In this document: positions 3,101-60,690 of the stretch, in pieces
How positions within the stretch are numbered: the stretch's first letter is position 1
Layout: every line of letters begins with the position of its first letter
DNA from: Pseudorasbora parva
Taxonomy: Eukaryota; Chordata; Actinopteri; Cypriniformes; Gobionidae
DNA length: 64,000 nt
NCBI RefSeq assembly: GCF_024679245.1
Contig: NC_090173.1
Coordinates: 25,138,160 to 25,202,159, forward strand
Reading direction: 5' to 3'
The notes under the pieces: model-generated
The model's input: only the letters and a program-made list of their open reading frames with translations
Told to the model about the DNA's origin: nothing
The model's database searches: none
Made by a program: the position numbers and the translations under genes

Positions 3101-6100
3101 GGCCACCTGGAACACCATGGAGAAGAAAGAGAAGATCATGTGGATCAAGAAGGCTGCAGAAGACCAGAAGAGATATGAAGTGAGTCCAGACAAATTAGAA
3201 CCATCATTTCAAACACCATTTAAACTTCTTCAATAGATTGTCTGATCACCTGTCTACTGCCTAGTAGATATTTAAAAAAAAACTTTTTATTATGGCTTCT
3301 TGTTTGGAAGATGTACTTCTTCTTTTTTTAATTCTTCTGTTTTATGCAGAGAGAGCTGAGTGAGATGCGATCACCTGCCCCAGTCTTCATCCCTGGGAAG
3401 AAAATGAAATTTGATGGGGAACCTAAGAAACCACCCTCGTAAGTTCATTGTGTATCTGAGTGTTGATGTGTTTGAGGCAGTTCACTAGTCTTGCCTTCCC
3501 ACTCTTTCTAATCGTGATCTCTTCATGTGGTCTACAGGAACGGTTACCAGAAGTTCTCTCAAGAGATGCTGTCCAATGGGGAGCTGAACCATCTGCCCAT
3601 GAAAGAGCGCATGGGTGAAATTGGAGGCCGCTGGCAGCGACTCCCTCAGAAAGATAAGGACCGTTACAAAAGGATGGCGGAGGAGAAACAGAGGCAGTAC
3701 AAAGGTCTTCTGGAGCAGTGGCTTGCGGTACCCCTATATATTTATTATTATTTGACATTAGAGCAATATAAATATCTTGATTATGAATATCTAATATATT
3801 TACCCATTGACATACCCATTTTAAAACCAACAATTTGAATGTTGAATTCAAGGATAATAAAATTATTTTCTCCCTTACAGAGTTTATCATCACAAGAGAG
3901 AGCTGTGTATAAAGAATATAACTCTCTGGTGAGTCATAAATGTGCATATATTCAGGAATTCAGTCTTTCTTATGTGGAAAAAATGTAAAAAAAATTATTC
4001 TTGCGCTTTTCTTCTTCAGAAACGGAGGAGCACATTTAAACCCGGTGGCACGCCTGCTAAAGTGAAACCCAAGGCTAAAGGATCGGTGAGTTTTATCACT
4101 CTGTTGGCCCCTGTACATTTTTAGCAGCATGTACTAATTGTTCTGTATCATTGGTGACCTTATCCAAAGGATGATGAAGAGGATGACGACGATGATGATG
4201 ACGACGACGATGATGATGAAGAGAAGGAGTCTGATGACGGATCATCCTCTGATGACGACAGTGATGATGATGACGATGATGATGACGATGAAGATGACGT
4301 ATGATTTTTCATTCACATCATGTATTTTAAAACAGTCTTGCTGATGTAGGATCAGCCTAATAGGAATTCTGAAATGAGATTTTGTTTTTTTTGATTAGCG
4401 ATTAGGGGTGGGCAATATAACCAAAATCTTGTTTCAGAATATGATGAAAAAAATCCCAATAACAAGGGATGCCACAATTCCCAATATAATATAGAACCGT
4501 TCGGTACGGCATTCACGGTTCAATATGCGTTTTTTTTTTTCCCGGTTTTGCATTTAATTAATTATTTACATTTCTCTCCAATTAAAAAATTTATCTCAAT
4601 TTATTTTGACTCTTTTTGAGTGTGCCTGTGAGTCTACGTGCTGATATGAGCAAATATCCAATCATATACACTAAAGTTTGGGGGTGTTTAGCCGCGCTTT
4701 AAAGCCTTGCCGGTTATTCGTGTGTTTGTTTACATCAGCTGAGTGCGCGTGCCTGTCAAACACATGTGAGTAAGGGACTAAGTAGTCTTACTGCGCTAAT
4801 AAGGTCAAATACATAGCAGGTTAACTTATATAAACACAGTCGGTTATGTCTAAAGTGAAAGTAAAATCTGCATTTGTCTGTATATGAGATGCAAGCAGGT
4901 CTTAGCAGCGCAGCCTAGTGAATGCTTGTCCTTTAAGGGACAGTTCACCACTATATATAATTATGTTAATAAAAAACAAAAGACCTTTTAATACAGTAAC
5001 TTTTAATCAATGTTGTATATTGAAGACTATGTAGTTTTAATTGTAGCCTACATTTATTCATTCAATTTCATACTTAAATGCTTCTGTACATCTCTGAGCT
5101 ACCACTGTAAATCTTTATATATATATTTATTTTATATTATACAATAAATTGCAAATGTGTACAAGGTTTTTTTTTTTAAAGTAAAGTTTTAAGTTTAAGT
5201 AAGGGTTTAAGTCTTTAAAGTAAAATAGAGGTGTATTGCAATAAAAACCTTCTCTCCTTAACCTTTTTATTGTTCCTGTCGCCTAAGAATAGAATGGCAA
5301 AAAAACGAACTGAAAACCGTGGTTAAAAACCGAGGTATTTATTGAACATGTATATATATTATTATTTTTACACTCACCTAAAGGATTATAAGGAACACCA
5401 TACTAATACTGTGTTTGACCCCCTTAAGCCTTCAGAACTGCCTTAATTCTACATGGCATTGATTAAACAAGGTGCTGAAAACATTCTTTAGAAATGTTGG
5501 CCCATATTGATAGGATAGCATCTTGATGGAGATTTGTGGGATGCACATCCAGGGCACAAAGCTCCTGTTCCACCACATCCCAAAGATGCTCTATTGGGTT
5601 AAGATCTGGTAAATGTGGGGCCATTTTCATACAGTGAACTCATTGTCATGTTCAAGAAACCGATTTGATCTTTGTGACATGGTTCATTATCCTGCTGAAA
5701 TACATAAAGGGATGGACATGGTCAGAAACAATGCTCAGGTAGGCCATGGCATTCAAACGATGCCCAATTGGCACTAAGGGGCCTAAAGTGTGCCAAGAAA
5801 ACATCCCCCACAACATTACACCACCACCACCAGCCTGCACAGTGGTAAAAAGGCATGATGGATCCATGTTCTCATTCTGTTTACGCCCAAATTTTGACTC
5901 TACCATCTGAATGTCTCAACAGAAATCGAGACTCATCAGACCAGGCAACATTTCACCAGTCTTCAACTGTCCAATTTTGGTGAGCTTGTGCAAATTGTAG
6001 CATCTTTTTTCTATTTGTAGTGGAGATGAGTGGTACCCGGTGGGTTCTTCTGCTGTTGTAGCCCATCTACCTCAAGGTTGTGTGTGTTGTGGCTTCACAA

Positions 6101-7486
6101 ATGCTTTGCTGAATACCTTGGTTGTAACGAGTGGTTATTTCAGTCAAAGTTGCTCTTCTATCAGCTTGAATCAGTCGGCCCATTCTCCTCTGACCTCTAG
6201 CATCAACAAGGCATTTTCGCCCACAGGACTGCTGCATACTGGATGTTTTTCCCTTTTCACTCCATTCTTTGTAAATCCTAGAAATGGTTGTGCGTGAAAA
6301 TCCCAGTAACTGAGCAGATTGTGAAATACTCAGACCGGCCCGTCTGGCACCAACAACCATGCCACATTCAAAATTGCTTAAATCTCCTTTCTTTCCCATT
6401 CTGACATTCAGTTTGGAGTTCAGGAGATTGTCTTGACCAGGACCACACCCCTAAATGCATTGAAGCAACTGCCATGTTGGTTGATTAGATAATTGTATTA
6501 ATGAGAAATTGAACAGGTGTTCCTAATAATCCTTAACCTGACAAGCCAGACCCACATCAAGGTGTTTGGTCTGGAAATTCACCATTGACAGGGCTCAATC
6601 CGAGGGGCGGATAAACGGTTGTCTTTCAAACTCCCTCTGCACGGCGTGCACGCAATTGGATATTGCTACAACCAACCAGAGCAACAAAGGTGAAGCAGAG
6701 CTCGTTGACAGATTAAACTTTAGATGTATCCGGTCGGCAAAAATCAGAACACATCTTCCCTTCTTAAGAATGACTTCAGTGCCGTTCTTTTTCTCAGAGA
6801 AAAGCTTAACTCCAAGTCGTGGTCAAAGCTGATTCGAAAGACCGCCGTTCGCCAGTTTCTGTGTTTACTAGAAGCATGCGCACGTGCAACTTGGCCGTCA
6901 TTATATTAAGCACCACCCACCGACTCTATACATGATGTGATTGGCCCGACCAGAGTGTGGCGTTTACCGCTCAGAAGTGAATTGAGAGTTAGAGCTAGAC
7001 GACACTTGCGGCTAGGGTGCGTCTAGATTTCTAAGAGTGAGTGTATGTGTGTATATAGCACAACATAGTTATTTTATCAATAAGAACAGAGAAGCATATT
7101 ACAAACAAAAGAACAAAGAAACAAGTTAAATAAACTAAATATTTATTTTCTTTGTCACTTTACAGTGTCAATCACTTGGTACTGTGCTATGTGGCTAACT
7201 TTGAAAACATGATATAATGTTTATATATAATGTAATGTTGCCAAGCCTTATTAGCAATATGTACAGATGCATTTGGTAATCACAAAAAAACTGCCACTGT
7301 GCTCCAAAATTGGAATTGTCGATTAAATTTATTTTTTATTATAAAAATGTGAATGAAAAATAATGTTTCAAAATTCACTTTCAGAACGAGGACATAGAGG
7401 ATGAAGAGGTGGAGGATAAGGAGAATAAATCCGAAAGCAGCAGCAGTGCTTCCAGCTCTGATTCGTCGGGTTCGGACTCTGATTGA
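183..7486 (+). CDS. ubtf: Upstream binding transcription factor (UBF), 3' part
   Basis: UBF is the HMG-box factor that organises rDNA chromatin and recruits the RNA polymerase I machinery in the nucleolus. The 5' exons lie before the window. Twelve exons join in frame: 183-324, 453-494, 598-711, 831-983, 1087-1233, 3069-3179, 3350-3438, 3538-3727, 3881-3928, 4020-4085, 4170-4298, 7385-7486. All have AG/GT borders, and the phases sum correctly to the TGA at 7484-7486. The encoded order follows UBF from HMG box 3 ([25 protein letters not shown]) through box 4 ([19 protein letters not shown]), box 5 ([18 protein letters not shown]) and box 6 ([19 protein letters not shown]). It ends in an acidic tail encoded by GAT/GAC runs and a Ser/Asp-rich C-terminus. 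The tail here is mostly Asp; the human tail mixes more Glu. Transposons enlarge introns 1234-3068 and 4299-7384. Reading on past the possible donor at 661 to the one at 712 keeps the conserved SPASKK motif. Confidence 0.95.
1258..2393. mobile_element. TTAA-flanked non-autonomous DNA element in a ubtf intron
   Basis: TTAA occurs at 1258-1261 and again at 2390-2393. Just inside, the ends are imperfect inverted repeats: AGGGGTCCTGATGTG on the left and, in reverse complement, AGAGGTCATGACATG on the right. TTAA target duplications are typical of piggyBac and Kolobok elements. No transposase frame is visible in the ~1.1 kb, so it would be non-autonomous. The superfamily is not settled. Confidence 0.6.
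2410..2850 (-). repeat. Copy of a dispersed teleost repeat
   Basis: The stretch carries the reverse complement of a repeat that recurs in this window at 41290-41780, 43090-43260 and 58815-59275. Shared landmarks include a sequence close to CATTACTCCAG-TCTTCAGTGTCAC and runs resembling AATAAATGCTGTTCTTT. It fills the space up to the next ubtf exon. I do not assign a family name. Confidence 0.5.
4400..5365. repeat. Decayed hAT-like repeat material
   Basis: The stretch starts with GGGGTGGGCAATATAACC and contains matched 'ACCGT...CGGT' style segments (GAACCGTTCGGTACGG near 4494 and AAAACCGTGGTTAAAAACCG near 5313). This pattern is common at the ends of fish hAT-type elements. I could not fix its ends or a target duplication. 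It lies in the last ubtf intron. Confidence 0.3.
5371..6540 (-). mobile_element. Tc1-like transposon, decayed, in the last ubtf intron
   Basis: The ends carry inverted repeats: AAGGATTATAAGGAACACC near 5381 and, in reverse complement, AAGGATTATTAGGAACACC near 6516. On the minus strand an open frame at 6399-6067 gives the N-terminal paired-like HTH region of a Tc1 transposase ([20 protein letters not shown]). A further fragment lies at 5906-5652 ([19 protein letters not shown]). The frame is broken between them and the C-terminal catalytic part is short, so the element should be inactive. Confidence 0.75.
6541..7050. repeat. Dispersed repeat beside the Tc1 copy
   Basis: The segment begins CAAGCCAGACCCACATCAAG and shares the 'CCAGAC' character of repeats at 33540-33730 and 54890-55190. 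No gene is visible. The rest of the intron, to 7384, is plain AT-rich sequence. Confidence 0.3.
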
Positions 7487-10562: not shown

Positions 10563-10571
10563 TAAATATTC
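10563..10571. repeat. Left target-site duplication, TAAATATTC
   Basis: The nine bases immediately before the ACTGG terminus are repeated exactly after the opposite CCAGT terminus at 21485-21493. Confidence 0.85.
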
Positions 10572-10670
10572 ACTGGCATGAAGTTGGTTTGACGTTAGAC
10601 GTTTGATATTCGCAAATTTAGGGACCGTCTCTAAAGTTGCATACGACATTGGTATGCACGTTTCAAACTT
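10572..10670 (+). repeat. Left terminal inverted repeat, 99 bp
   Basis: It is identical by eye to the reverse complement of 21386-21484. It runs from ACTGGCATGAAG to GTTTCAAACTT, directly before the first 190-bp unit. Confidence 0.85.
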
Positions 10671-12884
10671 CAATAACATTTGAATGGAATAATTTACAGT
10701 CATAAATCCAACTGTACAGTGTTCATCCAGGTGTCGGCTATCATGCACATCTTTTATATTTTTGATTTATATTAAAATACACTGTCAAATCATACTTAAA
10801 TATTGCTGTTTTTCACTACTGTATATTGGCTCATACATAAATATGTCATATTTTAGAGCTCAATAACATTTGAATGGAATAATTTACAGTCATAAATCCA
10901 ACTGTACAGTGTTCATCCAGGTGTCGGCTATCATGCACATCTTTTATATTTTTGATTTATATTAAAATACACTGTCAAATCATACTTAAATATTGCTGTT
11001 TTTCACTACTGTATATTGGCTCATACATAAATATGTCATAATTTAGAGCTCAATAACATTTGAATGGAATAATTTACAGTCATAAATCCAACTGTACAGT
11101 GTTCATCCAGGTGTCGGCTATCATGCACATCTTTTATATTTTTGATTTATATTAAAATACACTGTCAAATCATACTTAAATATTGCTGTTTTTCACTACT
11201 GTATATTGGCTCATACATAAATATGTCATATTTTAGAGCTCAATAACATTTGAATGGAATAATTTACATTCATAAATCCAACTGTACAGTGTTCATCCAG
11301 GTGTCGGCTATCATGCACATCTTTTATATTTTTGATTTATATTAAAATACACTGTCAAGTCATACTTAAATATTGCTGTTTTCACTACTGTATATTGGCT
11401 CATACATAAATATGTCATAATTTAGAGCTCAATAACATTTGAATGGAATAATTTACAGTCATAAATCCAACTGTACAGTGTTCATCCAGGTGTCGGCTAT
11501 CATGCACATCTTTTATATTTTTGATTTATATTAAAATACACTGTCAAATCATACTTAAATATTGCTGTTTTTCACTACTGTATATTGGCTCATACATAAA
11601 TATGTAATAATTTAGAGCTCAATAACATTTGAATGGAATAATTTACAGTCATAAATCCAACTGTACAGTGTTCATCCAGGTGTCGGCTATCATGCACATC
11701 TTTTATATTTTTGATTTATATTAAAATACACTGTCAAATCATACTTAAATATTGCTGTTTTTCACTACTGTATATTGGCTCATACATAAATATGTCATAT
11801 TTTAGAGCTCAATAACATTTGAATGGAATAATTTACAGTCATAAATCCAACTGTACAGTGTTCATCCAGGTGACAGCAATCATGCACATCTTTTATATTT
11901 TTGATTTATATTAAAATACACTGTCAAGTCATACTTAAATATTGCTGTTTTCACTACTGTATATTGGCTCATACATAAATATGTCATAATTTAGAGCTCA
12001 ATAACATTTGAATGGAATAATTTACAGTCATAAATCCAACTGTATAGTGTTCATCCAGGTGACAGCAATCATGCACATCTTTTATATTTTTGATTTATAT
12101 TAAAATACACTGTCAAGTCATACTTATTGCTGTTTTCACTACTGTATATTGGCTCATACATAAATATGTAATAATTTAGAGCTCAATAACATTTGAATGG
12201 AATAATTTACAGTCATAAATCCAACTGTACAGTGATCATCCAGGTGTCGGCTATCATGCACATCTTTTATATTTTTGATTTATATTAAAATACACTGTCA
12301 AATCATACTTAAATATTGCTGTTTTCACTACTGTATATTGGCTCATACATAAATATGTCATAATTTAGAGCTCAATAACATTTGAATGGAATAATTTACG
12401 GCCATAAATCCAACTGTACAGTGTTCATCCAGGTGACAGCAATCATGCACATCTTTTATATTTTTGATTTATATTAAAATACACTGTCAAATCATACTTA
12501 AATATTGCTGTTTTTCACTACTGTATATTGGCTCATACATAAATATGTCATAATTTAGAGCTCAATAACATTTGAATGGAATAATTTACAGTCATAAATC
12601 CAACTGTACAGTGATCATCCAGGTGTCGGCTATCATGCACATCTTTTATATTTTTGATTTATATTAAAATACACTGTCAAGTCATACTTAAATATTGCTG
12701 TTTTCACTACTGTATATTGGCTCATACATAAATATGTCATAATTTAGAGCTCAATAACATTTGAATGGAATAATTTACAGTCATAAATCCAACTGTTCAG
12801 TGTTCATCCAGGTGTCGGCTATCATGCACATCTTTTATATTTTTGATTTATATTAAAATACACTGTCAAATCATACTTAAATAT
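10671..12884 (+). repeat. Left satellite arm: 12 tandem units of ~190 bp
   Basis: Units start with CAATAACATTTGAATGG at 10671, 10861, 11051, 11241, 11430, 11620, 11810, 11999, 12184, 12373, 12563 and 12752. The spacing is 190 or 189 bp, with one of 185. The last unit is cut at 12884, where DIRS sequence starts. Units are nearly identical. A diagnostic variant, GACAGCAATC in place of GTCGGCTATC, occurs in units 7, 8 and 10. No open frame runs through the units. Confidence 0.95.
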
Positions 12885-13700
12885 CGTAAGCAAGTGAAAT
12901 GGCCTCGACCACCCACTTGCTCATTCTCTGCTTAGATACTGGAGCCCCTTTCTTAGGGGCTCCGAAACAGACGAATAACTGATCGGTCTTTCTCCACAGG
13001 GCAGCTCTGTGGACATATGTATCTAATGCCCTAACAGGGCAGAGCAGATTTAATCTTTCCTGGTCTGACGTCGTGAACGGAGGAGGACAGAAGGCTTGGA
13101 GAGTAATGGGGCCCCGTGGGCTCGTAGGAACCTTGGGGACGTAACCCGGATGTAGAAAGGCCTTCACCATCCCGGCGCAAACTCTAAACATGAGGGCCTC
13201 ACTGACAGGGACTGAATATCTCCTATTCTTTTGAGAGACGATATGGCCAAAAGAAGGATAGTTTTTAGGGTGAGGAACTTGTCCAAAACCTCCTCTAAGG
13301 GTTCGAATGGCGGCCCGCACAAGCCCCTCAAAACAATGGCCAAGTCCCAAGCTGGGACCCTCGAGTGCATAGCCGGCCTCAACCTTAAAGTACCACGGAG
13401 GAAGCGTGTAATCAGAGGGTGTCTTCCCAAAGACACTCCACCCAAAGGGACGTGGAAGGCACCCAAGGCCGCCACGTACACCTTTATTGTGGAGGGGGTC
13501 AACCCTGCCGAGAACCTAGCCTGCAGAAACTCCAGCACTGTACCAACCGGGCAGTTAACTGGGTCCCACTGGCGTTCTCTGCACCAAGCTGAGAAAAGCT
13601 TCCATTTCAGAGCGTACAGCTTCCTCGTGGACGGAGCTCTGGAGTGAAGGATGGTCTCAACGACCTCGGCCGAGAGACCTTCCTCTATGAGCCTGGCCCC
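12877..13700 (-). pseudogene. DIRS tyrosine recombinase, truncated before its catalytic core is complete
   Basis: The N-terminal part is clear (LIEEGLSAEVVETIL, APSTRKLYALKWKLFSAWC), as is the region around the first catalytic Arg (LLLAISSLKRIGDIQSL). The frame then shifts to 13350-12877 and ends at KWVVEAISLAY, where satellite sequence begins. The H-x-x-R and Tyr motifs that should follow are absent, so the enzyme could not catalyse strand exchange. Confidence 0.8.
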
Positions 13701-14233
13701 CTCAGAGGCCAAGCCCATAGTTTCCACATCTCTGGGCGTGGGTGCAGGAATCTCCCGCCCGCCTGAGAGAGTAGATCCCTCCTGGTCGGAATCTCCATCG
13801 GAGAGCCTTCCAGGAGAGATACCAGGTCCGAAAACCATACTCTGGTCGGCCAGTACGGAGCCACCAGAAGTACTTGGGCCCCGTCCCGGCGTACCCTCTC
13901 CAGAACTCCTGGAAGCAAGACAATCGGGGGGAAGGCGTACAGGGGTAGCCTCGGCCACTCCTGTACCATGGCATCCAACCCTAGCGGGGCTGGATGGGAC
14001 AGAGAAAACCACTGCGGGCAGTGGGAATTCTCCGCCGAAGCAAAAAGATCTATCTCTGCCTTCCCATATACCTTCCATAGGAGCTCCACCACCTCTGGGT
14101 GAAGTCTCCATTCCCCGGGCCTCGGCCCCTGCCTCGACAGGCTGTCTGCTTCCTGATTCAGGACCCCCGGGATATATACTGCCCTGATTGACAGCAATTT
14201 CCCTTGGGCCCACAGGAGGATCCGATGCGCCAA
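13685..14233 (-). pseudogene. DIRS middle segment after RNase H
   Basis: This frame carries the normal DIRS continuation: IPGVLNQEADSLSRQ, AEIDLFASAENSHCP, LYAFPPIVLLPGVLERV, VLLVAPYWPTRVWFSDL. It lies one frameshift away from both the RT part and the recombinase part. DIRS elements often have overlapping frames here, so some of the shift may be original. Confidence 0.7.
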
Positions 14234-15818
14234 TTTGTCCAGTGGACGGGAACCTCAGACCCCCCTGATGATTTATATAGGCGACCACCGATGTGTTGTC
14301 TGACCTGACTAACACATGGTGGCCCCTGAGGTCGGGCAGAAACTGTTTCAATGCAAGAAACACTGCGAGCATCTCTAGCCGATTTATGTGCCAGTGCTGC
14401 TGATGTTCCTGCCATAGACCCTGGGATGAGCGACCACTCATGGTCGCCCCCCAGCCCGTGAGAGAGGCATCTGTCGTTAGCGTTACGCGACGAACATGAG
14501 CCCCTAACACGGGACCCTGAGATAGAAACCCCGGGTTTTTCCACATGACCAGAGCACGTAGGCATCGCCGCGTGACTTTGATCGTGCGGAGCGGATTTCC
14601 CCTCGGGGAGAACCCCTTTGTTTTGAGCCACCACTGCAGTGGCCTCATGTACAGTAGGCCAAGAGGTATTACGTTGGACGCTGCTGCCATGAGACGTAAC
14701 AGTTTCTGGAACTGTTTCACAGTGACGGCCCGGTCTAGCTTCTGCTCTTTGACTGCTGCCAGGATCGATGCTATGCGTGTTGGCGATAATTGCGCCCGCA
14801 TTATTACCGAGTCCCAGTTCACACCTAGAAAAGTGGTTCTCTGAGCCGGAGAAAGCACACTCTTCTTGGCGTTCAGCCTCAACCCCAACTTCGACATATG
14901 CGCGAGAACAGCATCTCGATGCTGAACCGCCATCTGCTCTGTATTCGCTAGAATCAGCAAGTCGTCGATATAATTCAGTGTGCGGATGCCCTGCAGATGC
15001 AACGGCGCCAGAGCTGCATCCACACACTTGGTGAATGTGCGGGGTGACAGTGCTAGACCGAAAGGAAGTACTCGATATTGGAATGCCTCTCCCCCGAAGG
15101 CAAACCTGAGGAACTTCCTGTGATGTGGAAGGATGGAGACATGAAAATACGCATCTTTGAGGTCTATGGGGACAAACCAATCCTCTAGTTTGATCTGCGA
15201 CACAATCTGTCTGAGTGTGAGCATCTTGAACTTGAGCTTGGCCACCGAGCGATTTAGTAGACGCAGATCTAATATCGGGCGTAAGCCCCCATCCTTCTTC
15301 GGCACGATGAAGTAACGGCTGTAAAACCCAGACTCCCTGCTGGGAGGGGGAACCCTCTCTATAGCCCCTTTTTGCAGGCGTGTCTGTACTTCCTGTGCCA
15401 TTACCAGAGCCTGCTCCGGGCCCACCTCTGTAGGTAGGACACCGCTGAAAGGAGGTGGCCGACTTTTGAATTGAATGGCGTACCCCCTTTCGATTATCTG
15501 CAGGACCCAATGAGATATATTTGATAGACGTTTCCACTCGTCTAGAAAATCTACTAAGGGAACCAGCCTCTCGAGGCTGGCCTCTGGTGTACTTTGAGCA
15601 ACAAGCACAGTGCCCTGAAGCGGCGGACCGGCAGGGAACAACTGACTTGACTGCTCGGGGGCCCCCCGAGGGGGGCGCGGACCACCCTCGGGTGGCCCGC
15701 GGAGACCGACTGCGCCCCGACATTGCGGCGGGGTTGGCAGCGCGGCCCCCAGAGGGTGCCGCAGAGAAACGGGTACCGTTGGCAGGGGTAAACACCGTTT
15801 TCCTACGGGGGGAACCAC
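14158..15818 (-). pseudogene. DIRS reverse transcriptase and RNase H region
   Basis: The minus-strand frame from 15818 shows reverse transcriptase blocks: IVPKKDGGLRPILDLRLLN, DLKDAYFHV, LPFGLALSPRTF and the YIDD active-site motif at 14961-14972. An RNase H-like block follows (LTTDASLTGWGA, HINRLEMLAVFLALKQF, VRSDNTSVVAYINHQGG). Near 14235 the meaningful reading moves to another frame, whose protein begins AHRILLWAQGKLLSIR. The formal open frame continues to 13164 but is nonsense over roughly 14240-13690. Confidence 0.85.
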
Positions 15819-15843
15819 CCTCAGCGTCCTGACGCTTCTGGCA

Positions 15844-17314
15844 TCAGGAACGCTTCGACGAGGCCTTCTTGGCGATCAGGACTGTCCTCAGATCAGCCCT
15901 GCCCCTCGAAGGCCTCGTCTGAGAGCGCCGCCCCTCGTCCCCGCGCTGAGGGGGAGTTCGGGTGGCGACGCTCTGTTTTTGCTTTGCCCTGTGCGAAGCG
16001 CTCGTACTCGGTTTGGGCTGCTTGATGTCAGCAGCAGCCCCAGGGACCTGGACCCGGAGAGGGAGGAACTGCTTGAGCGCTGCAGCTTGCTTTTTCGTCT
16101 CCTGGAACCTCTCGGTGACAGTATGGACTGCGTCACCGAAGAGGCCTCCAGGAGAAAGCGGCGCATCGAGCAGAAAGGCTTTCTCCCTCTCCTTGATGTC
16201 TGTGGGGTTTAACCAGAGATGCCTCTCCGTGGCCACCAAGGCTGCCATAGAGCGGCCCACACATCTGGCCGTCTCCTTGGTGGCCCGGAGAGCTAGATCA
16301 GCGGAAGAACGCAGCTCTGTAATAATATCTCCCCCCACGACATCACTACTATCCAGATCCCTCAGCAGGTCAGCCTGGTACGCCTGCACGATTGCCATCG
16401 TGTGCAGGCATGCAGCGCCTGACCCGCTGCCGAGTACGCTTTGCCCACCAGCGCCGACGTTGTTTTTAAAGGTCTGGTGGGCAAAGTCGGGGCTTTAAGG
16501 GACGATGCCGAAGAAGGCGAGAGATGGCTCGCGAGCGTCTCCTCGACCTTTGGCATCGCCCCATAACCATACTGTTTCAGCCCAGCGATGTTACTGTAGA
16601 CCGAAGTCTGTGGGCTGAAAACACGATATGATGCCGGTCTCCTCCACGACCTTGCCACCTCAGTGTGCAAGTCATGAAAGAACGGCAATCCCCGTCTCTG
16701 AGGCGCGAGAAGGCAGGAATCTCTCGTCTAATTTGCTTGTACGCTTTCTTCCTGCCTCATATCTCTCGGCTGGCCAGTCGATGTTAAGCCTGGCCACCGC
16801 TCGCGTCAGAACCTCAACGAGCTCCTCGCATGCAGGGGACTGAAGTGGCGAGTCTTCAGTCTCGATGCTTTCAACGTCCACCTCCTCAGAGCTGGACAGT
16901 TGAAGCACCGGCGACTCTCTCGGGGGGGAAGAAACCGCCATGCGTGCTTCCATGCCCCGAGAAGAGCCGCTGGATGGTGCAGGTGAGGGCAGAGATAAGG
17001 CAGCGCCCATCTCTAACCCCTCTGCAACATCCAATTGTGATCCCCACGACTGCAGCCTCCGCTCCGCCTCGGCAGCAAGCGGGACCAGAGCCGCGGGGAA
17101 CACGAGCCGAGGCACCCTCCTCAAAGAGTGCCCGGCGGGAGCGCAGCGTTCTCAGCGGTAACTTCTCACAATGCTCGCAAGCAGCCCCCTCAAGGGCTGC
17201 CTGGGCATGCTGCGCTCCCAAGCAGGCAACACAGAGAGAGTGTGTATCCCCACCCGTGATGTAGCGTGGGCAGGGATGAACACACTTCCTGAAATTGCTG
17301 CTTTCGCTCGCCAT
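15844..17314 (-). pseudogene. DIRS Gag-like ORF, frameshifted
   Basis: The protein can be followed through several frames. It starts at 17314 with a Cys-rich segment (CVACLGAQHAQAALEG, CEHCEKLP). It continues in 17124-16672 (acidic, Ser-rich), then 16688-16362 (SVYSNIAGLKQYGYGAMPKV), and ends in 16398-15844 (TERHLWLNPTDIKEREKAFL) with a basic Arg/Ser/Lys-rich C-terminus. Each change of frame needs an indel, so no intact Gag is made. The role as the structural/nucleic-acid-binding protein comes from family knowledge. Confidence 0.7.
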
Positions 17315-17605
17315 TCTCTATCTATTTTATTTTCTCTTTTTTTGTTATATATATATGGAATATATAACAAAAGGGTGGAAAAACTCTTGCAATAGACAGA
17401 CAAAAACACCAAATAGACAGACAGGTTCACACAGATCGCTTGCTGAAGGATCAGAAGCTAGTTCCTGTTTGTTTTCACGGACGCTTTATATTATAATTAT
17501 ATATATATTATAAATATATATATTAATTTGATATAATAAAATGTTTGTGTAATCTGTTCGATTTCATTATTAAGAAATGTATAATTTTTTTGCTCCTTTT
17601 TGGTA

Positions 17606-20600
17606 AATTTTGACATTTATGTATGAGCCAATATACAGTAGTGAAAAACAGCAATATTTAAGTATGATTTGACAGTGTATTTTAATATAAATCAAAAATA
17701 TAAAAGATGTGCATGATAGCCGACACCTGGATGAACACTGTACAGTTGGATTTATGACTGTAAATTATTCCATTCAAATGTTATTGAGCTCTAAATTATG
17801 ACATATTTATGTATGAGCCAATATACAGTAGTGAAAAACAGCAATATTTAAGTATGACTTGACAGTGTATTTTAATATAAATCAAAAATATAAAAGATGT
17901 GCATGATAGCCGACACCTGGATGAACACTATACAGTTGGATTTATGACTGTAAATTATTCCATTCAAATGTTATTGAGGTCTAAAATATGACATATTTAT
18001 GTATGAGCCAATATACAGTAGTGAAAACAGCAATATTTAAGTATGATTTGACAGTGTATTTTAATACAAATCAAAAATATAAAAGATGTGCATGATAGCC
18101 GACACCTGGATGAACACTGTACAGTTGGATTTATGACAGTAAATTATTCCATTCAAATGTTATTGAGCTCTAAATTATGACATATTTATGTATGAGCCAA
18201 TATATAGTAGTGAAAACAGCAATATTTAAGTATGATTTGACAGTGTATTTTAATACAAATCAAAAATATAAAAGATGTGCATGATAGCCGACACCTGGAT
18301 GAACACTGTACAGTTGGATTTATGACTGTAAATTATTCCATTCAAATGTTATTGAGCTCTAAAATATGACATATTTATGTATGAGCCAATATACAGTAGT
18401 GAAAAACAGCAATATTTAAGTATGATTTGACAGTGTATCTTAATACAAATCAAAAATATAAAAGATGTGCATGATAGCCGACACCTGGATGAACACTGTA
18501 CAGTTGGATTTATGACAGTAAATTATTCCATTCAAATGTTATTGAGCTCTAAAATATGACATATTTATGTATGAGCCAATATACAGTAGTGAAAAACAGC
18601 AATATTTAAGTATGATTTGACAGTGTATCTTAATACAAATCAAAAATATAAAAGATGTGCATGATAGCCGACACCTGGATGAACACTATACAGTTGGATT
18701 TATGACTGTAAATTATTCCATTCAAATGTTATTGAGCTCTAAATTATGACATATTTATGTATGAGCCAATATACAGTAGTGAAAAACAGCAATATTTAAG
18801 TATGATTTGACAGTGTATTTTAATATAAATCAAAAATATAAAAGATGTGCATGATAGCCGACACCTGGATGAACACTGTACAGTTGGATTTATGACAGTA
18901 AATTATTCCATTCAAATGTTATTGAGCTCTAAAATATGACATATTTATGTATGAGCCAATATACAGTAGTGAAAAACAGCAATATTTAAGTATGATTTGA
19001 CAGTGTATCTTAATACAAATCAAAAATATAAAAGATGTGCATGATAGCCGACACCTGGATGAACACTATACAGTTGGATTTATGACTGTAAATTATTCCA
19101 TTCAAATGTTATTGAGCTCTAAAATATGACATATTTATGTATGAGCCAATATATAGTAGTGAAAACAGCAATATTTAAGTATGATTTGACAGTGTATTTT
19201 AATACAAATCAAAAATATAAAAGATGTGCATGATAGCCGACACCTGGATGAACACTGTACAGTTGGATTTATGACTGTAAATTATTCCATTCAAATGTTA
19301 TTGAGCTCTAAAATATGACATATTTATGTATGAGCCAATATACAGTAGTGAAAAACAGCAATATTTAAGTATGATTTGACAGTGTATTTTAATATAAATC
19401 AAAAATATAAAAGATGTGCATGATAGCCGACACCTGGATGAACACTGTACAGTTGGATTTATGACAGTAAATTATTCCATTCAAATGTTATTGAGCTCTA
19501 AATTATGACATATTTATGTATGAGCCAATATATAGTAGTGAAAACAGCAATATTTAAGTATGATTTGACAGTGTATTTTAATACAAATCAAAAATATAAA
19601 AGATGTGCATGATAGCCGACACCTGGATGAACACTGTACAGTTGGATTTATGACTGTAAATTATTCCATTCAAATGTTATTGAGCTCTAAATTATGACAT
19701 ATTTATGTATGAGCCAATATATAGTAGTGAAAACAGCAATATTTAAGTATGATTTGACAGTGTATTTTAATACAAATCAAAAATATAAAAGATGTGCATG
19801 ATAGCCGACACCTGGATGAACACTGTACAGTTGGATTTATGACTGTAAATTATTCCATTCAAATGTTATTGAGCTCTAAAATATGACATATTTATGTATG
19901 AGCCAATATACAGTAGTGAAAAACAGCAATATTTAAGTATGATTTGACAGTGTATTTTAATATAAATCAAAAATATAAAAGATGTGCATGATAGCCGACA
20001 CCTGGATGAACACTGTACAGTTGGATTTATGACAGTAAATTATTCCATTCAAATGTTATTGAGCTCTAAATTATGACATATTTATGTATGAGCCAATATA
20101 TAGTAGTGAAAACAGCAATATTTAAGTATGATTTGACAGTGTATTTTAATACAAATCAAAAATATAAAAGATGTGCATGATAGCCGACACCTGGATGAAC
20201 ACTGTACAGTTGGATTTATGACTGTAAATTATTCCATTCAAATGTTATTGAGCTCTAAAATATGACATATTTATGTATGAGCCAATATACAGTAGTGAAA
20301 AACAGCAATATTTAAGTATGATTTGACAGTGTATTTTAATACAAATCAAAAATATAAAAGATGTGCATGATAGCCGACACCTGGATGAACACTGTACAGT
20401 TGGATTTATGACTGTAAATTATTCCATTCAAATGTTATTGAGCTCTAAAATATGACATTTATGTATGAGCCAATATACAGTAGTGAAAAACAGCAATATT
20501 TAAGTATGATTTGACAGTGTATTTTAATATAAATCAAAAATATAAAAGATGTGCATGATAGCCGACACCTGGATGAACACTGTACAGTTGGATTTATGAC

Positions 20601-21385
20601 TGTAAATTATTCCATTCAAATGTTATTGAGCTCTAAATTATGACATATTTATGTATGAGCCAATATATAGTGAAAAACAGCAATATTTAAGTATGATTTG
20701 ACAGTGTATTTTAATATAAATCAAAAATATAAAAGATGTGCATGATAGCCGACACCTGGATGAACACTGTACAGTTGGATTTATGACTGTAAATTATTCC
20801 ATTCAAATGTTATTGAGCTCTAAAATATGACATATTTATGTATGAGCCAATATACAGTAGTGAAAAACAGCAATATTTAAGTATGATTTGACAGTGTATT
20901 TTAATATAAATTAAAAAATATAAAAGATGTGCATGATTGCTGTCACCTGGATGAACACTGTACAGTTGGATTTATGACTGTAAATTATTCCATTCAAATG
21001 TTATTGAGCTCTAAAATATGACATATTTATGTATGAGCCAATATATAGTAGTGAAAACAGCAATATTTAAGTATGATTTGACAGTGTATCTTAATATAAA
21101 TCAAAAATATAAAAGATGTGCATGATAGCCGACACCTGGATGAACACTGTACAGTTGGATTTATGACTGTAAATTATTCCATTCAAATGTTATTGAGCTC
21201 TAAATTATGACATATTTATGTATGAGCCAATATACAGTAGTGAAAAACAGCAATATTTAAGTATGATTTGACAGTGTATTTTAATATAAATCAAAAATAT
21301 AAAAGATGTGCATGATAGCCGACACCTGGATGAACACTGTACAGTTGGATTTATGACTGTAAATTATTCCATTCAAATGTTATTG
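17606..21385 (-). repeat. Right satellite arm: 20 tandem units of ~190 bp, inverted
   Basis: It has the same unit as the left arm in reverse orientation, counted by 20 occurrences of AAATGTTATTGA. The first unit begins imperfectly near 17606-17612. Variants such as GACAGTAAAT/GACTGTAAAT and TACAAATC/TATAAATC recur in blocks, so some units may have been duplicated in groups. The left-arm variant (read here as GATTGCTGTC) appears once, near 20937. Confidence 0.95.
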
Positions 21386-21484
21386 AAGTTTGAAACGTGC
21401 ATACCAATGTCGTATGCAACTTTAGAGACGGTCCCTAAATTTGCGAATATCAAACGTCTAACGTCAAACCAACTTCATGCCAGT
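21386..21484 (-). repeat. Right terminal inverted repeat, 99 bp
   Basis: It is the inverted copy of 10572-10670 and begins after the twentieth unit of the right array. Confidence 0.85.
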
Positions 21485-21493
21485 TAAATATTC
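21485..21493. repeat. Right target-site duplication, TAAATATTC
   Basis: It matches 10563-10571 exactly. Part of it belongs to a 16-bp direct duplication of host sequence (ATATTCGGCGTCCGTT, 21488-21519). Confidence 0.85.
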
Positions 21494-22078
21494 GGCGTCC
21501 GTTATATTCGGCGTCCGTTACTACCGTATAACACGTTCCCCTGCGGTTTTGAAACAATGTTGCCAAAACCCGCCCATATGGAAAATAATGATAGAGAAAA
21601 CAGGGCAGTCCGCCAGTCGTAGCTGTCAACTGTGTTTATAGTGACAGTGTGTTCATTTGTGTTCAACAGTTTTATTATGTTTAAATGAACTTGGTTATTA
21701 GTTTCTGACCCTCGTTTATCATACTGGACTGCTGTTTTACTGTATAATTGCAGTGCCCGCCCTTGTTCACCGTATTTCCTCTATACATCAGTTTGTTGAA
21801 CATACATTTGCACATAAACATGTTATGAAATGGACGCTATCGCATTTGCAGTTTCAGAAAGAAAGTGTATACAAAACCATTTAAGATATTAACAAATTAG
21901 CTGCTGTTTAGCAATATCGCATTTTGATATGCTGAATCTCAAATCCTTTTTCAAAGGCTGGTAGTTGGACGAAGATACTAAATAATATTTGTGATGCAAT
22001 GGTCTTTGTGGTTTTCAGTGTTTTCCACCCCGTTCTCTATTGTCGAAAATGAGAGATCCCCTACAATAGTTGTTGCAA
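21494..22078 (+). promoter_or_regulatory. atxn7l3 5' flanking region
   Basis: Unique sequence lies between the end of the satellite-armed element and the atxn7l3 start codon. It begins with a tandem 16-bp duplication rich in CG (GGCGTCCGTT twice) and must hold the promoter and 5'UTR unless noncoding exons lie upstream of the transposon. I see no clear TATA box or certain transcription start. Confidence 0.4.
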
Positions 22079-59439: not shown

Positions 59440-60690
59440 TATATAAGTTCATTTTTTTCCATAATGTAATGATAAAAAATAAACTTTCATATATCTTAGA
59501 TTCATTGCACACCAACTGAAATATTTCAGGTCTTTTATTGTTTTAATACTGATGATTTTGGCATACAGCTCATGAAAACCCAAAATTCCTATCTCAAAAA
59601 ATTAACATATCATGAAAAGTTTCTCTAAACGAGCTATTAACCTAATCATCTGAATCAACTAATAAACTCTAAACACCTGCAAAAGATTCCTGAGGCTTTT
59701 AAAAACTCCCAGCCTGGTTCATTACTCAAAACCGCAATCATGGGTAAGACTGCCGACCCGACCATGTCCAGAAGGCCATCATTGACACCCTCAAGCTAGA
59801 GGGTAAGACACAGAAAGACATTTCTGAACGAATAGGCTGTTCCCAGAGTGCTGTATCAAGGCACCTCAGTGGGAAGTCTGTGGGAAGGAAAAAGTGTGGC
59901 AAAAAAACGCTGCACAACGAGAAGAGGGGACTGGACCCTGAGGAAGATTGTGGAGAAAGACCGATTCCCTTGGGGGACCTGCGGAAGCAGTGGACTGAGT
60001 CTGGAGTAGAAACATCCAGAGCCACCGTGCACAGGCGTGTGCAGGAACTGGGCTACAGGTGCCACATTCCCCAGGTCAAGACATTTTTCAAGGTGCCAGA
60101 GTCTGGAGGAAGACTGGAGAAGGAAATGCCAAAATGCCTGAAGTCCAGTGTCAAGTACGCACAGTCAGTGATGGTCTGGGGTGCCATGTCAGCTGCTGGT
60201 GTTGGTCCACTGTGTTTTATCAAGGGCAGGGTCAATGCAGCTAGCTATCAGGAGATTTTGGAGCACTTCATGCTTCCATCTGCTGAAAAGCTTTATGGAG
60301 ATGAAGATTTGTTTTTTCAGCACGACCTGGCACCTGCTCACAGTGCCAAAACCACTGGTAAATGGTTTACTGACCATGGTATTACTGTGCTCCATTGGCC
60401 TGCCGACTCTCCTGACCTGAACCCCATAGAGAATCTGTGGGATATTGTGAAGAGAAAGTTGAGAGACGCAAGACCCAACACTCTGGATGAGCTTAAGGCC
60501 GCTATCGAAGCATCCTGGGCCTCCAGAACACCTCAGCAGTGCCACAGGCTGATCGCCTCCATGCCACGCCGCATTGAAGCAGTCATTTCTGCAAAAGGAT
60601 TCCCGACAAAGTATTGTGTTGTTGTTGTTTTTTTACAAATATAAATTAATGATACTTTCTTCATATACATTTGGATTATTTAACTTTTAA
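59440..60690 (+). mobile_element. Tc1-like transposon copy
   Basis: The 5' noncoding part (TTTCAGGTCTTTTATTGTTT and following) and the transposase at 59750-60644 follow the usual fish Tc1 layout. Clear terminal repeats were not resolved. Confidence 0.75.
59752..60644 (+). pseudogene. Tc1 transposase with an internal deletion
   Basis: Reading starts near 59739 (MGKTADPT), shifts frame by one base near 59765, and then runs openly to 60644. The HTH part is present (DISERIGCSQSAVSRHLSG). The second catalytic Asp lies in FFQHDLAPAHSA and the Glu in SPDLNPIENLW. Between KVPESGGRLEKE and CLKSSVKYAQSV about 45 residues are missing, including the expected 'FSDE' block with the first catalytic Asp. 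The protein would lack the DDE triad. Confidence 0.8.

Follow-up and report, generated by a model that had tools for sequence, protein, structure and literature searches.

A foldback transposon family of probable Mutator-like type with a captured DIRS fragment in the fish Pseudorasbora parva

We analysed a 64,000-nt stretch of the Pseudorasbora parva genome (the window), in which positions 10572-21484 are occupied by a 10,913-bp element bounded on both sides by the exact 9-bp target-site duplication (TSD) TAAATATTC. We consider it very probable (about 0.85) that this is a non-autonomous cut-and-paste foldback transposon of a Mutator-like element (MULE) family, with a transposase resembling a group of fish proteins, one of them labelled NOF-FB, that combine DDE, Ulp1-like and PHD domains. 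The foldback family is real, young and recently mobile.

The element shows the architecture that defines foldbacks, namely long inverted repeats that contain tandem arrays of variable unit number. Inside each terminal inverted repeat (TIR), units of ~190 bp are repeated in tandem, in opposite orientation on the two sides, and the arrays enclose a loop of ~4.7 kb (12885-17603) that consists mostly of DIRS sequence. The arrays follow directly on the 98-bp TIR and prolong it, so that exact inverted identity extends over 279 bp; over 2,306 aligned positions, the left and right arms are 98.1% identical. The original prediction had placed a mobile foldback here, with identical 99-bp TIRs, an exact 9-bp duplication and opposed arrays of 12 and 20 units. 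This description holds apart from the TIR length, since the non-array repeat measures 98 bp; the coding content of the loop was absent from it. The parts of the insertion are as follows.

10563-10571, no strand: left 9-bp target-site duplication TAAATATTC
10572-10669, plus strand: left TIR, 98 bp, beginning ACTGGCATGAAG; first 110 bp identical at several other loci
10670-12884, plus strand: left array, 11.7 units of ~190 bp
12885-17490, minus strand: captured DIRS fragment with gag side, reverse transcriptase, RNase H and N-terminal part of the tyrosine recombinase; both DIRS ends missing
12877-13350, minus strand: tyrosine recombinase fragment running into the array, without the HSTR...Y end present in relatives
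13164-15818, minus strand: 884-aa open reading frame (ORF) of the DIRS cargo (RVT_1, E 3.1e-29; RT_RNaseH, E 1.7e-07)
17491-17523, no strand: AT-rich filler between cargo and loop remnant
17524-17603, no strand: remnant of the original loop, 80 bp, beginning CCAAAAAGG on the minus strand; common to 8 of 9 loops compared
17604-21386, minus strand: right array, 19.9 units, orientation opposite to the left
21387-21484, minus strand: right TIR, 98 bp
21485-21493, no strand: right 9-bp target-site duplication TAAATATTC

The right target duplication is overlapped by a 16-bp direct repeat, ATATTCGGCGTCCGTT, at 21488-21520. A motif common to TIR and unit was considered and rejected, as their longest common word is 7 bp, inside the range of 300 shuffles.

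The element belongs to a dispersed family. A 99-bp query from the left end gave at least 41 TIR matches in the assembly (1.23 Gb, 79 contigs), a lower bound because 40 of 330 candidates were scored. Thirteen insertions with both ends were examined: the window copy; long copies on contigs C13, C4, C14, C8, C3, C2, C1 and C23; a 137-bp mini-element, present on C11 and C3 with the same flank and counted once; and insertions of 100 bp (L055, C19), 315 bp (L056, C15) and 737 bp (L062, C9 at 37.73 Mb). An exact 9-bp TSD, within the ~8-10 bp typical of foldbacks, flanks 10 of the 13, so that the further genomic copies with 9-bp duplications proposed in the original prediction do exist. Family copies span 100 bp to 10.9 kb. 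The remaining TIR matches have no second end in the stretch examined; the copies in question may be truncated or diverged, or may extend beyond it. An assembly artefact was rejected on the strength of many loci with different TSDs, and chance duplication on that of the match count together with the ten exact TSDs. At one locus on C14 (L042, 532-8429), ~7.9 kb of other sequence lies between a TIR with a partial unit on one side and more units with a DIRS piece on the other.

An empty site within the genome provides evidence on the insertion itself. The C8 copy (L034) and the C23 copy are inserted in two copies of a single dispersed repeat, at positions 21 bp apart, so that their flanks are reciprocal uninterrupted sites. 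Once joined, the flanks of L034 align across the junction with C23 sequence (98.7% over 150 bp), as do those of the C23 copy with L034 (96.5% over 141 bp); insertion was therefore precise, with a 9-bp duplication. The repeat hit by both copies is perhaps a preferred target.

Across eight copies compared, arms contain 5 to 20 unit starts, and their lengths vary even where the loops are 99.5-99.6% identical (window, C3 and C1). Among 140 monomers, those of one arm are 97.6% identical, those of a copy's two arms 97.4% and those of different copies 97.0%. Since arm lengths differ at near-identical loops and monomers remain about 97% alike, array length changes faster than sequence. As the original prediction put forward, the opposed arrays might, if transcribed, fold into long double-stranded RNA, and as DNA they might form cruciforms or promote deletions.

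Such long homogeneous arrays, with monomers about 97% identical, could be taken for a genomic satellite picked up and dispersed by the transposon, and the original prediction had the element carrying and spreading satellite DNA. The distribution of the unit speaks against this. Every match listed, these being part of a total of 194 from a search in which 40 of 94 candidates were scored, falls in a locus with a TIR match, and no free unit array away from a TIR is among them. Moreover, seven diverged copies (L058, L059, L060, L062, L063, L064 and L065), whose TIR is 87-90% identical to that of the window and which look like older copies, hold a unit at 72-83% identity beside it; the second end of L062 has a TIR at 77%. 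In an eighth copy, L061, 64 bp of the TIR are identical and the unit has no match. We therefore regard a satellite origin as very unlikely: the ~190-bp unit seems to be a repeat internal to the element, because all listed matches sit in TIR-bearing loci, and an old one, because the seven older copies have diverged unit and TIR together.

In the window copy no transposase was recognised, in agreement with the original prediction; the recognised loop domains are all of DIRS type, and this copy is non-autonomous. Gene pieces are found in sister copies. A PHD-finger exon, which forms the 3' end of a transposase gene, is retained in whole or in part by the loops of four other copies; the original prediction missed it along with the DIRS fragment. 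The DDE part lies in L043. In other fish, related proteins unite DDE, Ulp1 and PHD domains, and one of them (P0036) is labelled NOF-FB. The catalytic pattern D, D, C-x2-H, E is present in the relatives and in L043, the sequences in which it was examined: the second D, the C and the H are invariant in 20 aligned rows, the first D is nearly so, and the E occurs in 17 of the 18 rows that reach it, with H instead in P0014. The predicted fold is closest to an IS256-family transposase, as would be expected of an IS256/MULE protein. The relatives of the loop gene and this predicted fold support a Mutator-like transposase as the probable motor, which the original prediction had proposed alongside a Merlin-like one. 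In L043, at about 2000-2760 on the minus strand, a stretch that follows the DDE part appears by eye to be tandem-repeated with simple repeats between.

Several observations weigh against this assignment. At the insertion level, the C4 copy (L032) has a TSD that matches at 7 of 9 positions, and the C1 copy (L037) and the C15 copy (L056) have none. At the gene level, the PHD exon carries substitutions in L036 and in the C23 copy, and in L043 the 156 codons ahead of the open frame contain 7 stops; array pieces that share one orientation flank the gene there, which indicates that this copy is rearranged. The structure model has a mean predicted local distance difference test score (pLDDT) of only 59, and Pfam names no transposase family for the 532-aa ORF or for 13 relatives. 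No intact transposase of the element's family was found in the assembly, and a supply of activity in trans is presumed. Other NOF-like loci in the genome, some with long open frames, are at most 66% identical to P0001, except for a ~60-residue stretch at 81%, and are other families. Finally, a profile search gave no recognisable Drosophila NOF among its matches, most of them unnamed, and the link to Drosophila NOF comes from one source's label, that of P0036. In an alternative reading, the element would be mobilised by a different superfamily (Merlin or P/Galileo-like), with the NOF-like gene pieces being captured cargo as well; we judge this quite improbable and retain a MULE transposase as the probable motor.

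A different NOF-like locus with an open frame, L057 (C18:22990000-22998500), contains two tandem arrays, one with a 66-bp unit repeated 29 times (151-2069) and one with a 209-bp unit repeated 6.5 times (4161-5525); tandem growth also affects another NOF-like element. L057 gave no match in the TIR scan (40 of 330 candidates scored), and its inverted repeats, among 25 of 38 pairs listed, are AT runs.

The window loop encodes, on the minus strand, a reverse transcriptase (E 3.1e-29), an RNase H (E 1.7e-7) and an N-terminal recombinase stretch that stays below threshold (0.26). The DIRS coding order of reverse transcriptase, RNase H and tyrosine recombinase is preserved; a complete DIRS, with terminal repeats and a catalytic tyrosine recombinase, is not present. 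The 884-aa frame has 2,344 protein matches at E 1e-30 or better, and its top-scoring homolog is 70% identical over 95%. We identify the cargo as DIRS by the order of its domains and by relatives whose sequence runs on into HSTR...Y, no listed match being so labelled.

DIRS sequence is abundant in this genome, with 3,227 first-look candidates, 40 of them scored; among the listed rows, the 36 that do not belong to known copies of the foldback family show 94-97% identity. This abundance, together with the DIRS order retained in the cargo body, would suit a DIRS retrotransposon that inserted itself in the foldback element as a simple nested insertion. Against two genomic DIRS copies (C16, C24), however, the cargo begins within the 5' end and breaks off just short of that end of the recombinase which bears HSTR and the final Y; there it joins the array directly with about 1 bp of overlap. 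With both DIRS ends gone, self-insertion was rejected as the whole explanation, and we consider nested insertion rather unlikely; a complete DIRS insertion followed by two terminal deletions is a conceivable variant.

Capture of an internal DIRS piece is the reading we prefer. All 5 copies that retain the recombinase side of the cargo have the same cargo-array join, and DIRS cargo, whole or partial, occurs in 7 of 20 loci examined, single-ended loci being covered over ~10 kb only. Foreign sequence thus lies inside TIRs and TSDs in multiple copies, as in a Pack-TIR, here with cargo that itself derives from a transposable element. In all five copies compared, the frames on the gag side are split. 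Window-type and C2/C23-type cargo are 97-98% identical to each other and 99.1-99.6% identical within type. The simplest order would be one capture, different trimming at the other side and then amplification. In addition, the old copy L060 (C9:31846580-31847480) has, at 205-445 between its diverged TIR and unit, a DIRS-type recombinase C-terminal piece. This recombinase end is of another lineage, 66% identical to P0173, and possibly represents a second capture.

Taken together, these observations suggest a sequence of events in which a transposase supplied in trans would cut at the 98-bp ends, and unequal exchange or faulty repair would make the arrays expand and contract. In one such repair event, an internal piece of a DIRS retrotransposon present in high copy number may have come to fill the loop, and transposition would then have amplified the composite element. 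More tentatively, and at somewhat less than even odds, the inverted arrays may serve as a capture platform, with breaks in arm or loop repaired by copying pieces of other elements and the chimeras multiplied by transposition. Candidate products are at least two separate DIRS pieces (window type and L060) and the L043 transposase gene flanked by array pieces. If so, a vertebrate DNA transposon would be carrying and amplifying reverse-transcriptase sequence. The family offers young and old copies, pieces of the probable transposase gene, a genomic empty site and a relative ordering of the changes in the cargo, which makes array growth in foldback arms and sequence capture tractable in a vertebrate. 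Elsewhere in the window, the frames at 6067-6399 and 59880-60644 resemble Tc1/mariner remnants.

Foldback elements are best known in flies, nematodes and plants. Drosophila FB and FB-NOF have repetitive, rearranging TIRs, a 9-bp TSD and a NOF-type MULE protein, and the fish family shares the repetitive, rearranging TIRs and the 9-bp TSD; the FB units, at 31 bp, are far shorter than the ~190-bp fish unit. Within the open PMC literature we found no paper on foldbacks in zebrafish or other teleosts, and none on DIRS captured in a MULE foldback. A table in a teleost survey lists a MULE-NOF copy count for zebrafish, probably the same transposase group as that of the fish element; in the accessible part of that source, no architecture is described alongside the count (PMC4746887). 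Tm1 of root-knot nematodes, as far as the available text describes it, combines composite TIRs, in which the tandem repeats vary, with TSDs of mostly 9 bp and a Mutator transposase, and probably acquired sequence; it resembles the fish element in its composite, tandemly repeated TIRs and 9-bp TSDs and differs in its ~14-bp units, against ~190 bp here, and its Phantom-type transposase (PMC3169594). In the portion seen of the report on the Ssk-FB4 Pack-TIR, a Drosophila foldback took up a gene between its ends and carried it to several places. Foreign sequence was captured and moved in both cases, the cargo being a host gene in Ssk-FB4 and a fragment of another transposable element in the fish (PMC8277862). 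Nearest in architecture is Tetris of Drosophila virilis, which in the accessible account is a foldback with ~220-bp tandem units inside its TIRs and 8-10 bp TSDs, is attributed to Mutator, and has a short relative, DAIBAM, with common end portions (PMC4079207). That account reports no transposase for Tetris and kb-size satellite-like arrays of its unit, whereas the fish family has transposase gene pieces, shows no free arrays among the unit matches listed and, unlike Tetris, carries a DIRS fragment (PMC4079207).
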